IMG/VR virus record: IMGVR_UViG_3300049440_000047
Coordinates: 1-24,002 of that record
Length of the DNA stretch: 24,002 bases
Strand: one strand, 5' to 3'
From: a virus
Positions 1 to 5,694 of the stretch are shown piece by piece. Every line of letters begins with the position of its first letter. The first letter of the stretch is position 1. The notes beneath the pieces are model-generated. The model did no database searches. It saw only the letters and a list, made by a program, of their open reading frames with translations, and was not told the DNA's origin. Position numbers and translations under genes: made by a program.

Positions 1-1338
1 CGGCGCAGCCGCTGGGCGGTGATTAGAAACACGTATCGTCAGCTGAACGACACGACGATCCGCACCGTGCACCAGTGGTTCCCTTATCCAATGATGGGGC
101 AGTGGCGGGCCACTGAACATGAATATGTACTAAACAAACTCATTGCCGACGGTGACAAGAAGTGCGCAGAGATCGAGCTGCTGTTCCGCGCGCTCGATCG
201 GCCTGACCATGTGCGGAACTTGCTGTCGTTGGACTTGACAGGCGCCTGGGTGAACGAGGCGCGCGAAGTTCCCTGGACCATCATCGATGCCCTGCAGGGC
301 CGCGTCGATCGCTACCCGGCCAAGCGCGACGGCGGCGGTGCCACCTGGGCCGGCATCATCCTCGACACCAATCCACCCGATGCCGACTCGGCGTGGTACC
401 GCTTCTTCGAGAAGATGGATCACAGCGAGGCGGTGGAGGCGCTCGCCGCGTTCATGCCCGGAATGACCGTCGCCAAATATTGCCGCATCTTCAAACAGCC
501 CTCCGGCCTGTCCGCCAGCGCCGAGAACGCCAAAAACCAGTCCCCAGGTTATTGGCAGCGGCTGGCCATCGGAAAAACTGATGAATGGGTGAAGGTATAT
601 TGCCGCGGTGAATATGGGTTCGTGACCGAGGGTAGGCCGGTTTTCCCCGAGTATCACGACAACGTCCACTGCCCTGGTGGCGCCGACGAGAAGCGCGCAC
701 CCCGCACCGACTCGCGGCTGCCGGTGCACCGTGGGTGGGATTTTGGCCTGACGCCGAGCTGTATCTTCAGCCAGCTGGCGGCCACCGGTCAGTGGAAAAT
801 CGTGGATGAGTTGTGCGCCGATACGATGGGGGTCGACCGGTTCTCCGATCAGGTGCTCAGCCATTCCAGCCAGCACTTCCCGGACACGGAGTTCATCGAT
901 GTCGGTGACCCGGCAGGCACCAGCCGCTCGGAGACCGACGAGAAGACGTGCTTCGATATCCTGCATAATAAGGGGATCATGATCGAGCCGGGTCTGCAAT
1001 CACCGCAGATACGGCAAGAGTGCATCCGCAAGCAGCTCCGGCAGTTCGACGACGATGGGCGCCCGGCGTTCAACCTGCATCCCCGCTGCGGCCGGCTGCG
1101 GCGGGCGCTGCAGGGGGGATACCACTATCGCCGGATACAGATCGCCGGCACCGAGCGCTGGGCCGACAAGCCGGAAAAAAACTTGCACTCCCACCCAGCC
1201 GACGCGCTCCAGTACACCGCCACGCGGCTGTTCGGCCCGTCGATGCAGTGGCGCGGAGACCAAATCGACAACGACATGATCGAGCTGAACTCGCGGCTCG
1301 TGCAGGACCGCACCCGTTCCAAGACGACAGGATACTGA
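1..1338 (+). CDS. terL: Terminase large subunit, 3' part (5' end outside window)
   Basis: Motor and nuclease of the DNA packaging machine; it cuts concatemeric DNA and pumps it through the portal. The frame is open from base 1. Codons before the first in-window GTG (position 19) continue the typical motif (RSRWAVIRNTYRQL), so the true start lies upstream and the Walker A region is missing from view. Numbering from base 1, LTGAWVNEAREVP belongs to the ATPase part. The RNase H-like nuclease half shows WDFG (D247), DVGDPAG (D300, D303) and HPADALQY (D401), the usual spaced acidic residues. The visible 445 residues fit a family of roughly 500 to 600. It is followed after one base by a small ORF. 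Identification is by recognised motifs; family membership is very likely, the exact subfamily is not determined. Confidence 0.93.
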   Translation, partial: RRSRWAVIRNTYRQLNDTTIRTVHQWFPYPMMGQWRATEHEYVLNKLIADGDKKCAEIELLFRALDRPDHVRNLLSLDLTGAWVNEAREVPWTIIDALQGRVDRYPAKRDGGGATWAGIILDTNPPDADSAWYRFFEKMDHSEAVEALAAFMPGMTVAKYCRIFKQPSGLSASAENAKNQSPGYWQRLAIGKTDEWVKVYCRGEYGFVTEGRPVFPEYHDNVHCPGGADEKRAPRTDSRLPVHRGWDFGLTPSCIFSQLAATGQWKIVDELCADTMGVDRFSDQVLSHSSQHFPDTEFIDVGDPAGTSRSETDEKTCFDILHNKGIMIEPGLQSPQIRQECIRKQLRQFDDDGRPAFNLHPRCGRLRRALQGGYHYRRIQIAGTERWADKPEKNLHSHPADALQYTATRLFGPSMQWRGDQIDNDMIELNSRLVQDRTRSKTTGY

Positions 1339-1339
1339 G

Positions 1340-1528
1340 ATGCACAGAGAGCTGGCCGACGAGATCGTTCTCATCGCGGCGCCGATCTTCGCGGCGTTGT
1401 TGGGGCAGCTCGTAGCCAACACGCCGCACGGCCAGACGGTTCCAGCAGAGACGATGGGGGAGCTGCGCCGTCAAGCGATCACCCAGGCGCTGGCGCTGCG
1501 GCGGGATGTGCTGTCCACTGAGGTGTGA
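1340..1528 (+). CDS. Small hypothetical protein (62 aa)
   Basis: Not recognised. The ATG lies one base after the terminase stop, which suggests translational coupling; there is no strong separate Shine-Dalgarno. The protein is mostly helical in appearance, with a hydrophobic N-terminal half (LADEIVLIAAPIFAALLGQL) that could be a membrane or helical-bundle segment, then a polar half with Gln and Arg. Its last codons run into the first unit of the 18-bp repeat array (core starts at 1523). Small ORFs between terminase and portal are common in phages and usually have no assigned role. It could also be a chance frame, but its position and good codon bias favour a real gene. Confidence 0.5.
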   Translation: MHRELADEIVLIAAPIFAALLGQLVANTPHGQTVPAETMGELRRQAITQALALRRDVLSTEV

Positions 1529-1811
1529 GCCGAACTTGAGGAGAGTGCCGGTAACCGGGAGCGAGCCGAAGTTCAGGAGAGTGCCGTAGAGCAGGAGCGC
1601 GGCCGCCACGAGCGAGAGTGCCGAGTCCCAGGAGCGAGCCAGATGCGGTGAGAGTGCCGATTACGGCGAGCGAGCCGTTATACGGGAGTGTACCGTCGAC
1701 TGTGAGCGAGCCGACCATGAAGAGAGTGCCGAGCCACAGGAGCGAGCCGTCCCCCCAGAGAGTGCCGAGCAACAGGAGCGAGCCGACCCGGCTGAGAGTA
1801 TCGAGGTCGCC
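1523..1811 (+). repeat. Tandem array, 18-bp period, alternating conserved 10-nt cores and variable 8-nt segments
   Basis: Sixteen consecutive units fill most of the gap between terminase and portal genes. Odd units carry core A (GAGCGAGCCG, exact at 1559, 1668, 1704, 1740, 1776); even units carry core B (GAGAGTGCCG, exact at 1541, 1577, 1614, 1650, 1722, 1758). Each core is followed by eight bases that look unrelated between units. Units at the ends are degenerate (GTGTGAGCCG at 1523, GAGAGTATCG at 1794). Unit 5 (1595-1613) is 19 nt long. Read as protein the + strand gives SEPxxx/RVPxxx hexapeptides, but a TAG at 1587 and the 19-nt unit break that frame; the - strand gives GSLxxx/GTLxxx, also shifted at unit 5. 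I see a non-coding or decayed coding array; function unknown. Confidence 0.85.
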
Positions 1812-1817
1812 GAGCGG

Positions 1818-1872
1818 TGGGGCCGAGTGTAGCTGGTTACCCAGCACCAGCCTGGGTATATGCTCGGCCCCA
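1818..1872 (+). promoter_or_regulatory. Two-part stem-loop over the start of the small Cys protein gene
   Basis: A perfect 10-bp inverted repeat, TGGGGCCGAG (1818-1827) with CTCGGCCCCA (1863-1872), encloses a perfect 7-bp one, TACCCAG (1838-1844) with CTGGGTA (1852-1858), loop CACCAGC. In RNA this would form one extended hairpin with an asymmetric internal loop. It directly follows the repeat array. The two possible start codons of the next gene lie at its 3' side: the ATG at 1860 falls between the two 3' arms, and the ATG at 1872 begins at the last base of the outer arm. It could therefore limit translation. There is no T-run after it, so a simple intrinsic terminator is unlikely. The pairing is seen; the function is inference. 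Confidence 0.45.
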
Positions 1873-2126
1873 TGTCTTCCACCCTCATAGTCCCGCGCGA
1901 CGTGGTTGCCCGCATGCTCGATCAGGCATGCGCCACATGCCGCTACTCGTGGAAAGATCCCGCCGGGGATCTAAACTGCCGCCGCAACCCGCCGACGGCG
2001 TTCCTCATCCCGATGCCATCGAAGCTGGGAACAAGCATGGAACTCCGGCCGTTCTCCACATTCCCGGTGGTGCGGCCAGATTACTGGTGCGGTGGCTGGA
2101 CCGAACGAGGAACGACCACCGGTTGA
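1860..2126 (+). CDS. Small four-cysteine protein, possible zinc-binding
   Basis: Numbering from 1860, the protein has CxxC at 24 and 27 (ACATCRYSW), C40 (NCRRNPP) and C77 (PDYWCGGW), an arrangement that could bind one zinc ion. Similar small proteins with a CxxC near the N-terminus and a WCG-type motif near the C-terminus occur in many phages; none that I know has an assigned function. The ATG at 1872 (MSSTLIVPRD) is a plausible alternative start and may be nearer to the family norm. Neither start has a good Shine-Dalgarno, and both are inside or beside the 1818-1872 stem-loop. The gene ends 33 bases before the portal start. Existence is fairly likely, function unknown. Confidence 0.62.
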   Translation: MLGPMSSTLIVPRDVVARMLDQACATCRYSWKDPAGDLNCRRNPPTAFLIPMPSKLGTSMELRPFSTFPVVRPDYWCGGWTERGTTTG

Positions 2127-2159: not shown

Positions 2160-4715
2160 ATGAGCGCCGCTTTGAGCGCGATCCCGACAGGGGGACCGCC
2201 ACCCGATCAGGACCAGGACCAGCAACAGCCGCCTGACACGATGCAGGGGCCGCCGCCGGATGAGCCCGAGGCGCCACTGAAGTCTGCTGACATCCTGCCT
2301 CTCCGCCCACCAGCTCCCGACCAGTCCCTCGCCGATCCGAAGACCGACCAAGCCGATCGCCGGCCGCTGCTGCAACAGAAGCATGTGCGCCGGTTCGCTA
2401 GGTGGATCGTGCGGAAGAACATCGCCGACGAGGTCGAGGAGGGCAAACGCCAGCGCCTCGCCGATCAGGCCAAGCGCGAATACGAACTCGATGAGGACAC
2501 CCGCGCCGACTGGAAGCAGCGCTACGCCGACTGGATGGCCTTTGCGCTCCAGGTGGTCGAACCCAAGACGTACCCGTGGCCGAACGCCTCCAACGTCTGC
2601 TTCCCGCTCATCACCGTCGCTGCGCTGCAATTCAACGCCCGGGCCTATCCGGCGATCGTGCAGGGCCGCAACGTGGTCAAGGGGACCGTGATCGGCGATG
2701 ATCGCGGCGTGCCGCTGCTGGCGCCGCCGCAACAGCCCGGCATGGCCCCCGGCGGGCCGGCTGGTCCCGGCGGTCCTGGCGGTCCAGGTCAAACGGCTAT
2801 GCCCGGGCCGCCCGGGGGAGCAGCTCCTGGCGGCATGCCAGGGCCTCCACAGGGGGCGCCGCCAGGGGCACCTCCGATGCCACCACAGCCCGGCCATGGC
2901 GGGCCACAGCAGGCCCCAGGCGGTCAAGCGATCGGTCCTGGCGGCAAGGCACTGTGGATCGTGCCGCCGGGCTCCAAGCAGACGCGCGCCGACCGCATCG
3001 GCCGCCACATGTCCTGGCAGCTGCTCACCGAGATGCCGGAGTGGGAGGAGCAGACCGACCGGCTGCTGATCACCGTGGCGATCGCCGGCACGATGTTCCG
3101 CAAGAACTACTTCGACCCGAAGCAGCGGCGGAACGTCAGCGAGATCGTCTCCGCGCTCCGACTCTGCGTGAACTACAAGGCCAAGAGCTTCGATGCTTCA
3201 CCGCGCAAGACGGAGCTGATCGACTTCTACCCGTGGGAGATCGAGAGCAACGTCCGCTCCGGCCTGTGGCTCGACTACGGCGACGAGGGCTATGGCCGCA
3301 ACGCCGATACCTCCGAGGACGAGCAGGCGCCGGTCACCTTCTGCGAGCAGCACCGCCGCTACGACCTCGACGACGACGGCTACGATGAGCCGATCATCCT
3401 CACCTTCGCCAAGGACAGCGGCAAGCTCGCTAGGATCACGGTGGGCTTCGACCAGGACTGCATCGATGCGACCGAAGAGGGCGAGGTCGCCGAGATCCGC
3501 CAGATCGACTACTACACCAAGTACGGCTTCATCCCGAACCCCGACGGCGGGTCATACGACCTGGGCTTCGGCAGCCTGATGTATCCGCTGAACGCCGCGG
3601 TCAACACCACCATCAACCAGATGTTCGATGCCGGTCACCTGCAGATCGCAGGCGGCGGCTTCATCGGCGGCGGTGTGTCGATCAATGCCGGCTCGGTGCG
3701 GTTCATGACCGGCGAATACAAGGTCGTCACCACGCAGGGCCGCACGCTGCGGGAAAACTTAGTACCGCTGGAGATGCCGGGGCCGAACCCGGTGTTGTTC
3801 CAGTTGCTGCAGTTCTTGGTCGAGGCGGCCAAAGATGTAGGCAGCATCAGGGAAGTTCTGCAGGGTCAGCTGCCCGGCGCGAATGTTCCCGGCATCCTCG
3901 GTCTCGCTGTGATCCAGCAGGGATTGAAGGTGTTCAATGCCATATTCAAACGTATACACAGATCCCTGCGGCAGGACTTCGACAAGCTATTTAGGCTCAA
4001 TCGCCTCTATCTTCCCGATGAAGCAGGATTTCGTATCGGATCAGAATACTTTCAGATACAGAGATCAGACTACATGCGGGGTTCTGGCGCGGAGCCCGTC
4101 AGCGATCCGGACATGGTCACCGACACCCAGCAGATGGCGCAGGCTAATTTCCTGCTGCAGTTCGCTTCTGACCCGTTCTTCGACGGGCGCGAGATCCGCC
4201 TGAGGGCGATGCAGGCTGCGGCTATCCAGCAGGTCGACAAGCTGATCGCCGCCCAGGCGCCGCCCAATGCTGAGCTGGTGCAGGCCGCGGCGGCATTGCA
4301 GCTGCAGAAGGAAGAAGTTGACATAGCGCAACAGATGGCCCAGCTCCGCAATAAAGAGCTGGACATCAGGCAGATGCGCGAGCAGGCCGACCTGATGATC
4401 AAGCGGGGCCGCGACAAGGCCGGCGAGATCAAGGATCTGACTGCGGCTATCCTCAATCTGGCCAATGCCCGCAAAGCTGACGCGGAAGTCGACCAAGGCT
4501 GGGTCGAGCACCAGCTCACCGCGCTCAAGCATCAGGTGGAACTCCTCAATGCTACAACTGACACCGGAACTGATGGCGAAGGCGGTGGCTCCTCCAGTGG
4601 AAATAGCGGAGGCCCGCCGCCCGGCCTTGCTGGATCTGTCGCCGCAGGACTTCAATCAATGGCGCCACAATCCGGTAACGGTGCAGGTTCTCCTGTACCT
4701 GGAGGACTACCGTGA
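2160..4715 (+). CDS. Portal protein (head-tail connector)
   Basis: Forms the dodecameric ring through which DNA enters and leaves the capsid and onto which neck proteins dock. The 851-residue length, position between terminase and scaffold, an N-terminal helical part with the motif WPNASNVCFPL, a central region with MYPLNAAVNTTINQMFDAG, and a long helical C-terminus rich in Gln and charged residues (about 690-795) fit portals of short-tailed phages. Two features are odd: a Pro/Gln-rich N-terminus, and a Gly/Pro-rich collagen-like segment at about residues 190-264 inside the conserved body. The C-terminal tail is Gly/Ser/Pro-rich and overlaps the next gene in another frame. An upstream in-frame stop at 2130, with no ATG/GTG/TTG codon between, supports the ATG at 2160, although no clear Shine-Dalgarno precedes it. 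Confidence 0.85.
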   Translation: MSAALSAIPTGGPPPDQDQDQQQPPDTMQGPPPDEPEAPLKSADILPLRPPAPDQSLADPKTDQADRRPLLQQKHVRRFARWIVRKNIADEVEEGKRQRLADQAKREYELDEDTRADWKQRYADWMAFALQVVEPKTYPWPNASNVCFPLITVAALQFNARAYPAIVQGRNVVKGTVIGDDRGVPLLAPPQQPGMAPGGPAGPGGPGGPGQTAMPGPPGGAAPGGMPGPPQGAPPGAPPMPPQPGHGGPQQAPGGQAIGPGGKALWIVPPGSKQTRADRIGRHMSWQLLTEMPEWEEQTDRLLITVAIAGTMFRKNYFDPKQRRNVSEIVSALRLCVNYKAKSFDASPRKTELIDFYPWEIESNVRSGLWLDYGDEGYGRNADTSEDEQAPVTFCEQHRRYDLDDDGYDEPIILTFAKDSGKLARITVGFDQDCIDATEEGEVAEIRQIDYYTKYGFIPNPDGGSYDLGFGSLMYPLNAAVNTTINQMFDAGHLQIAGGGFIGGGVSINAGSVRFMTGEYKVVTTQGRTLRENLVPLEMPGPNPVLFQLLQFLVEAAKDVGSIREVLQGQLPGANVPGILGLAVIQQGLKVFNAIFKRIHRSLRQDFDKLFRLNRLYLPDEAGFRIGSEYFQIQRSDYMRGSGAEPVSDPDMVTDTQQMAQANFLLQFASDPFFDGREIRLRAMQAAAIQQVDKLIAAQAPPNAELVQAAAALQLQKEEVDIAQQMAQLRNKELDIRQMREQADLMIKRGRDKAGEIKDLTAAILNLANARKADAEVDQGWVEHQLTALKHQVELLNATTDTGTDGEGGGSSSGNSGGPPPGLAGSVAAGLQSMAPQSGNGAGSPVPGGLP

Positions 4716-4890: not shown

Positions 4891-5303
4891 TGCCAAGAGC
4901 CTACGTCAAGCACGGTTTCACCGGAATGCCGGAATATGTGGCGTGGAAGCACATGAAGGCGCGCTGCCACAACTCAAACCATCCCGAGTTCCATAACTAT
5001 GGCGGTCGGGGGATCTTCGTCTGTCAGGAGTGGCGCGAGGACTTCGAGGCGTTCTATGCCCACCTCGGGCCACGCCCGTCGCCGAAGCATTCGCTCGACC
5101 GGTATCCCGACAACAACGGGTCATACGAACCCGACAACGTACGATGGGCGACTACCGCCCAACAGCAGGCCAATGCCCGTGACAGGGGGCCAGCGCTCAG
5201 CTTGGCCCTGCAACGAGCCCATCGTGAGCATCCTGGGTTCAATGGGGCGGCCGAGCGTATGAGACGCTTCAATCGCGAGCGCAGAGAGGCTACCCGTGCT
5301 TGA
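4890..5303 (+). CDS. HNH-like phage protein (putative nuclease or DNA-binding)
   Basis: The 137-residue protein has the pattern shared by many small phage proteins annotated as HNH-type: WKHMKARCHN (19-28), NYGGRGIFVCQEW (36-48), LDRYPDNNGSYEPDNVRWA (69-87) and a following QQQAN. The YGGRGI...W and D-R-x(3)-NNG-x-Y-x(3)-N-x-RWA combination is the recognisable signature. The usual first His of the HNH motif is replaced by Asp here (LDR), so catalysis is not certain and DNA binding alone is possible. The C-terminal third is basic. Its start overlaps the previous stop (TGATG), and its last codons overlap the GTG of the GroES gene. Such genes are often mobile; here the tight overlaps at both ends suggest long residence. 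Confidence 0.7.
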   Translation: MPRAYVKHGFTGMPEYVAWKHMKARCHNSNHPEFHNYGGRGIFVCQEWREDFEAFYAHLGPRPSPKHSLDRYPDNNGSYEPDNVRWATTAQQQANARDRGPALSLALQRAHREHPGFNGAAERMRRFNRERREATRA

Positions 5304-5694
5304 AGGCCGCGTCCTGCGAACCGGTGACCAGCGCGAGTTCGTACTGGCCGAATGGGATGGCATCAACCACAGCGGCATCACCCCACTCGATGACAAGGTG
5401 TTGGTGCTGATGGATCAGCACGCCGAGACCACGTCGGGCGGCATTATCGTTCCCGACACCAGCCGCTCACAGCAGACCATGGCATCCGAGACCGGTGTGG
5501 TGATCGCGCTCGGCGCGGCGGCTTTCGAGTTCACCGACGATGGCAATCGGCGCTGGAGCACGGCCAAGCCGGAGCCGGGCGATCGCGTGGTGGTGGAGCG
5601 CTACGCCGGCCGCGTGGTGCAGGGCGAGGACAGCGTGGAGTACCGGCTGGTCAGTCAGCGCTCGATCGGCGCGCTCTACAGCAGGCAGGAATGA
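5296..5694 (+). CDS. groES: GroES-type co-chaperonin
   Basis: A phage-coded co-chaperonin that would cap a GroEL ring and help fold virion proteins, most likely the major capsid protein, as T4 gp31 does. The core begins at PLDDKVLV (30-37). The mobile loop that contacts GroEL is visible as TSGGIIVP (46-53), with the hydrophobic IIV tripeptide, followed by GVVIALG (67-73) and the strand GDRVVVERYAG (95-105). At 132 residues it is longer than bacterial GroES (about 97), because of an N-terminal extension of about 28 residues and an insert before KPEPGDR. The start is GTG with AGAGAGG six bases upstream; an in-frame start nearer the core is not obvious. It overlaps the preceding gene by eight bases. 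No GroEL gene is seen. Confidence 0.9.
   Translation: MLEGRVLRTGDQREFVLAEWDGINHSGITPLDDKVLVLMDQHAETTSGGIIVPDTSRSQQTMASETGVVIALGAAAFEFTDDGNRRWSTAKPEPGDRVVVERYAGRVVQGEDSVEYRLVSQRSIGALYSRQE

Follow-up and report, generated by a model that had tools for sequence, protein, structure and literature searches.

Organization of the locus

The window, as we call the whole 24,002-nt stretch of viral DNA analysed here, opens inside the gene for the large terminase (terL) and carries an array of short alternating repeats between terL and the portal gene, with a small reading frame on either side (Table 1). The 62-residue frame upstream of the array (1340–1528) had no Pfam match, and the gene downstream of it (1872–2126) matched neither Pfam nor PHROGs. 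Further along, the structural gene module contains a GroES/Cpn10 homologue (5296–5691; Pfam PF00166, E 1.8e-13).

Recounting the array confirmed the 16 units, strictly alternating cores and mutually different octamers of the original prediction; 15 units are 18 nt long, and the single 19-nt unit that it had reported lies at 1595–1613. The two 10-nt cores, GAGCGAGCCG and GAGAGTGCCG, differ at two positions; the last of the 16 copies lies at 1794–1803, and 12 copies are within one mismatch of their consensus (mismatches along the array, 2000301002000002). Both repeats have the form GAx...x'CR, which is GAG...CCG in the window. The first core, GTGTGAGCCG, is an edge repeat that is either degenerate or truncated. 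The array starts with the truncated edge TGAGCCG and closes with the truncated edge GAGCG, beyond which a structured stretch leads up to the start codon (ATG) of a small gene. No Rfam family matched the array.

Table 1. Features from the start of the window to the end of the portal gene (A and B, spacers of each predicted guide).
Feature	Position	Strand	Description
Large terminase, terL	1–1338	+	5′ part missing; homologues matched by sister-phage guides
Small ORF	1340–1528	+	62 aa; between terL and array; stop overlaps first edge repeat
TIGR array	1523–1811	+	8 predicted guides; edge – spacer A – loop – spacer B; 36-nt period
Guide unit 1	1523–1558	+	degenerate edge GTGTGAGCCG, A=AACTTGAG, loop GAGAGTGCCG, B=GTAACCGG; overlaps TGA stop of ORF 1340–1528
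Guide unit 2	1559–1594	+	A=AAGTTCAG, B=TAGAGCAG; identical pair in relative G016
Guide unit 3	1595–1631	+	37 nt; degenerate edge GAGCGCGGCCG, A=CCACGAGC, B=AGTCCCAG
Guide unit 4	1632–1667	+	A=GATGCGGT, B=ATTACGGC; 1-nt variant in relative G001
Guide unit 5	1668–1703	+	A=TTATACGG, B=TCGACTGT
Guide unit 6	1704–1739	+	A=ACCATGAA, B=AGCCACAG; identical pair in G003, within a different array
Guide unit 7	1740–1775	+	A=TCCCCCCA, B=AGCAACAG; identical pair in G001, 2-nt variant in G004
Guide unit 8	1776–1811	+	A=ACCCGGCT, B=AGGTCGCC
Truncated 3′ edge repeat	1812–1816	+	GAGCG; truncated array ends described in PMC12045711
RNA pseudoknot flanking the array	1818–1872	+	P1 up to 14 bp around P2/P3; ends on the A of the following start codon
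Small Cys-containing protein gene	1872–2126	+	begins at pseudoknot foot
Portal protein gene	2160–4715	+	PHROG 1216 portal, E 6.8e-11; weak P22_portal

The repeats form a TIGR array

Although the original prediction knew of no described element that would fit, this one has a description: it is a TIGR array. TIGR-Tas is an RNA-guided DNA-binding system, the arrays of which consist of two alternating repeats of 8–12 nt and short spacers (about 9 nt, and 8 nt in SpTIGR) in a 36-nt unit, with truncated edges at both ends (Faure et al. 2025, PMC12045711). The window array has alternating 10-nt repeats, 8-nt spacers, a 36-nt unit and truncated ends. In published tigRNAs, edge and loop have a box C/D in common and the edge has an extra pair that is supported by covariation (PMC12045711). 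The edge repeats of arrays from the wider Tas family differ from one another by paired changes (GAGCGAGCCA, GATCGAGACA, GAACGAGTCA, GAGTGAACCA, GAATGAATCA), and their positions 3:8 and 4:7 covary, pairing having had no part in the scoring. Because these paired changes match the published edge pairing, we assign GAGCGAGCCG as the edge and GAGAGTGCCG as the loop.

A terminase search yielded 11 related contigs (G002 overlaps the window at 97.1% over 1,489 nt, G001 at 90.8%), and each contig that reaches the terL–portal junction, where the original prediction had proposed to look, has an array there with the same cores. These relatives keep the cores at 18-nt spacing and carry mostly different octamers. 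The original prediction was right in proposing a role at the level of the nucleic acid, with cores held and octamers free. A pattern scan found arrays of the same kind in many phage contigs. When arrays were sought de novo by their 36-nt period, 188 of 267 loci, most of them fetched for carrying arrays or tas, proved to contain arrays, whereas 0.76 Mb of shuffled DNA contained none, which places the array far beyond chance. Within the sequence available, relatives G001 and G002 have six arrays each and G004 has seven; such dispersal of several arrays over same-strand intergenic sites, the terL–portal junction included, looks new. TIGR-TasA loci also occur in contigs of two named bacterial isolates, Acidobacteriaceae KBS 96 (L140) and Halomonas sp. 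NO4 (L139).

Tas protein in related phages

Published TIGR arrays lie on one or both sides of a tas gene. The window holds no tas gene in its 24,002 nt, since it begins inside terL: in the closest relatives, G001 and G002 among them, Tas is encoded about 5–6 kb upstream of terL, and other arrays adjoin the gene. The link to tas comes through relatives with 87–97% nucleotide identity over terL, from which we infer a Tas gene in the window's own phage. Near one of the arrays upstream of tas, in relative G001, there is a tRNA gene (L227 1403–1495, − strand).

Clustering of reading frames placed one protein family in most array-bearing loci, in a cluster that also contains array translations; counted without these, the family is present in about 40 array-bearing loci. 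Its sequences match TasR (9mty, the best PDB hit by sequence, E 8e-16, one member) and TasH (21kl, E 3e-10), also by profile, and the relatives' proteins match Pfam PF02371. When folds were compared, Tas structures took ranks 1–10 at TM-scores of 0.4–0.7 (model pLDDT 78). No nuclease domain had a supported Pfam match in the Tas of the relatives, and we class the lineage protein as TasA because it lacks a recognisable N-terminal nuclease. It has an N-terminal extension of about 80 residues with predicted helices (L063 2326–2580; four alignment rows), which is missing from most other Tas relatives and was modelled with low to medium confidence.

A Tas relative is encoded in 396 viral stretches. 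Of the annotated phages and plasmids, a single phage record, that of Microcystis phage Mvi-JY20, had a Tas protein (29% identity) and no plasmid had one. Pfam detected no ParB-like partner among eight genes near tas of one close relative. Two tas genes contain in-frame stops, one TGA and one TAG in L042 5434–6372 and one TAG in G036:C1:35859–36659; they are possibly decayed or read through.

A pseudoknot flanks many arrays

The structured stretch directly 3′ of the array can fold into a 14-bp outer stem that encloses an H-type pseudoknot and leaves almost no base unpaired; as full-length helices leave too few bases for the loops, some terminal pairs are probably open. A strict search over 400 kb of the lineage found 20 such pseudoknots, 19 of which lie no more than 60 nt from an array; Markov-shuffled sequence contained none. 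The sequences of 17 copies differ while the pairing is kept, with G–U pairs at several positions; since the copies were found by structure, pair counts alone would be circular, which does not apply to their number and location. The element also flanks arrays in L227, L228, L230, L231, L232, L252 and L086, often ending at the next start codon, and it matched no Rfam family. As a covarying pseudoknot at the flank of many arrays it looks like a new feature. Our guess is that it separates guide processing from the downstream message.

Guides are shared as whole units

Spacer pairs common to several arrays lie around a loop repeat (A–loop–B) 20 times and around an edge repeat (B–edge–A) 4 times. 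This supports the assignment of edge and loop and indicates that the unit of inheritance or exchange is the whole tigRNA. Differences of one or a few bases also occur between related guides; pairs of closely related guides showed no preference for differences at third codon positions, which counts against the reading that we favour below. Families of near-identical guides extend across G001, G002/G007 and G003 (for example, CAGTCCTTTAGCTTCT, CGGTCCTTTAGCTTCT and CAACGCTTTAGCTTCT), and no phage target was found for these; host DNA is a candidate target.

Guide matches in sister phages

In the published target geometry, spacer A runs along one strand and is followed immediately by spacer B in reverse complement (PMC12045711). 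We searched for sites of this form, given below as spacer A / reverse complement of spacer B, with 420 distinct guides in the window and 20 contigs of its lineage, 504 kb outside arrays. A match was a site with at most one mismatch, a test that was set beforehand, or with at most three mismatches if all were synonymous, a criterion set after the first hits had been seen, for which the longest ORFs on the array strand were simply taken as the genes.

At up to one mismatch, 15 guides matched another contig, compared with 6.2 ± 2.5 when spacer B was shuffled within its contig; none of 107 shuffles reached 15, and one or more did in a second set of 126. Spacings of 1–6 between the target halves gave 3–7 such guides. 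No guide matched its own contig at this threshold, where 0.4 would be expected by chance. The synonymous criterion was satisfied by 33 guides, and the two criteria together by 41 of 420 guides at 67 sites, compared with 23.1 ± 4.2 guides (maximum 39) and 28.3 ± 5.9 sites (maximum 44) in 126 shuffles; one shuffle thus came near the observed number of guides (39 and 41) but not near that of sites. The same union came to 16–29 guides at spacings of 1–8, to 26 of 405 with wrong pairing and to 17 on the same strand. About half of the 41 guides would be expected to match by chance, so single guides call for caution, and most lineage guides had no match. For opposite-strand pairing of A and B with adjacent target halves, these counts provide statistical support in the lineage as a whole, as distinct from the window's own guides.

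The terL gene and the tas region are each hit by four of the guides that matched sister phages. A guide of G002/G007 (AATGGTTT/CCGTATCC) and one of G003 (AGTGGTTC/CCGTACCC) match different synonymous alleles of one terL site (QWFPYP), and they differ from their carriers' own terL alleles by 3 and 2 bases, respectively. A scan of public viral contigs for this site in its two-allele form found terL matches only in phages already known. The terL Walker A motif of three phages is matched by a G001 guide (AACCGCTA/CTCTTGCC) with 2 synonymous changes, the tas gene of five phages by another G002/G007 guide (TGGTTGGA/AACCTTGT) with one mismatch, and one G004 guide spans the portal start codon.

Outside the lineage, the same test on 96 mutually unrelated array-bearing loci gave no excess of matches, which fits targets being close kin, and a search over all DNA collected, regardless of kinship, gave a weak excess only (one run with a single shuffle). 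The window's eight guides had no convincing target in the DNA searched. Exact 16-mer scans of public viral contigs with two of them returned 17 hits for one and 10 for the other, and no hit fell in a gene homologous to one of the lineage.

Proposed role and alternative explanations

We think it likely that the array is a guide array of a TIGR-TasA system and that some guides of the lineage are aimed at genes of sister phages, which they would probably block. The array is probably transcribed together with the late genes. By analogy with published tigRNAs, cleavage of the transcript within the edge repeats would release guide RNAs of 36 nt, in each of which a loop repeat separates two 8-nt spacers, and these guide RNAs would be loaded onto a Tas dimer encoded elsewhere in the phage genome, outside the window. 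At a target of 16 bp, spacer A would pair with one strand of the DNA and spacer B with the opposite one. Some guides would thereby be directed to conserved sister-phage genes (terL, tas and the start of the portal gene), where TasA may open the 16-bp target of a sister phage that shares the cell and block expression or replication; we infer blocking rather than cutting because TasA lacks a nuclease. The window's guides may act alike. We hold it about evenly balanced whether all of this amounts to RNA-guided competition between sister phages, in which dispersed guides recognise conserved terL, tas and portal sites of relatives but differ from the carrier's allele, TasA blocks these relatives and the pseudoknot separates guide RNA from message.

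Alternatively, the array might be a TIGR array with guides that act in regulation or integration of the phage itself or are directed at host DNA, the sister-phage matches being incidental. Regulation and mobility are among the possible TIGR roles listed by Faure et al. (PMC12045711), most guides are unmatched in the phage DNA searched, and some are kept with small changes over several phages although no phage target was found for them. However, enrichment in sister phages appeared only at the geometry predicted beforehand, the matches include the groups on terL and on the tas region, and at one mismatch or fewer no guide matched its own contig, although chance alone predicts few such matches. 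We regard this explanation as rather unlikely.

Readings without guides fare worse. An array of protein-binding DNA sites for packaging, replication or regulation, as the original prediction suggested, would suit the regular spacing and the place between terminase and portal genes, but arrays lie at many intergenic sites, and beside tas in many phages, and binding sites predict neither inheritance in A–loop–B units nor the signal of spacer geometry, which makes this reading highly improbable. The same prediction had considered a decayed hexapeptide-repeat gene. The repeated peptide would be E-R/S-A-x-x-x, the 18-nt unit is divisible by three and one frame is partly open in several arrays, yet of 49 distinct lineage arrays, 30 lack any open frame on the coding strand and 15 have spacings that break the frame, and none of the frames is conserved. 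The TAG that was said to break the frame of the window array is present, but it falls in one of three frames only. Having examined all six frames, we reject coding in any of them and find a decayed repeat gene scarcely credible.

According to Faure et al. (PMC12045711), it is unknown what TIGR spacers target in nature and how the arrays grow. The lineage bears on both, with close phages that carry several arrays, share whole units and contain candidate targets, and a small set of predicted guide–target pairs makes the biological role of TIGR testable. A literature search, which mostly did not extend to subscription journals, found no later report of TIGR targets. We thus have a known kind of element, TIGR, in a new arrangement, with what is, as far as we know, the first evidence, from sequence comparison, for its natural targets. 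The phage of the window is a soil phage, and the guide matches within its group hint at competition of phage against phage. The loci of the two named isolates would be useful for an experimental search for hosts and targets.

Comparison with known systems

The lineage resembles the described TIGR-TasA systems (PMC12045711) in its 10-nt repeats (a length given there for tasA–tasParB loci), short spacers, 36-nt period and truncated terminal edges, in the phage as carrier and in a Tas protein with a Nop-type domain only. It differs from them in that arrays also lie kilobases away from tas, in several late-gene intergenic sites, with up to six or seven arrays per phage; in spacers of 8 nt; in the roughly 80 extra N-terminal residues of Tas; and in that the window array is followed by a pseudoknot without a T-run and by an ATG, with no terminator, which is usual, though not universal, in the published systems. 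SpTIGR-TasH of a Salicola phage (PMC12045711; PDB 21kl, 9vzx, 9w02) is likewise phage-encoded and has 8-nt spacers (16 nt in total), but TasH has an HNH nuclease, whereas the lineage protein has neither such an N-terminal domain nor a supported nuclease match. CRISPR arrays, including those borne by phages, are alike in having guides made of repeats and spacers, in the gain, loss and exchange of units and in guides against competing phages; in contrast to CRISPR, TIGR uses two alternating short repeats, a guide split over two strands and a Tas rather than a Cas effector.
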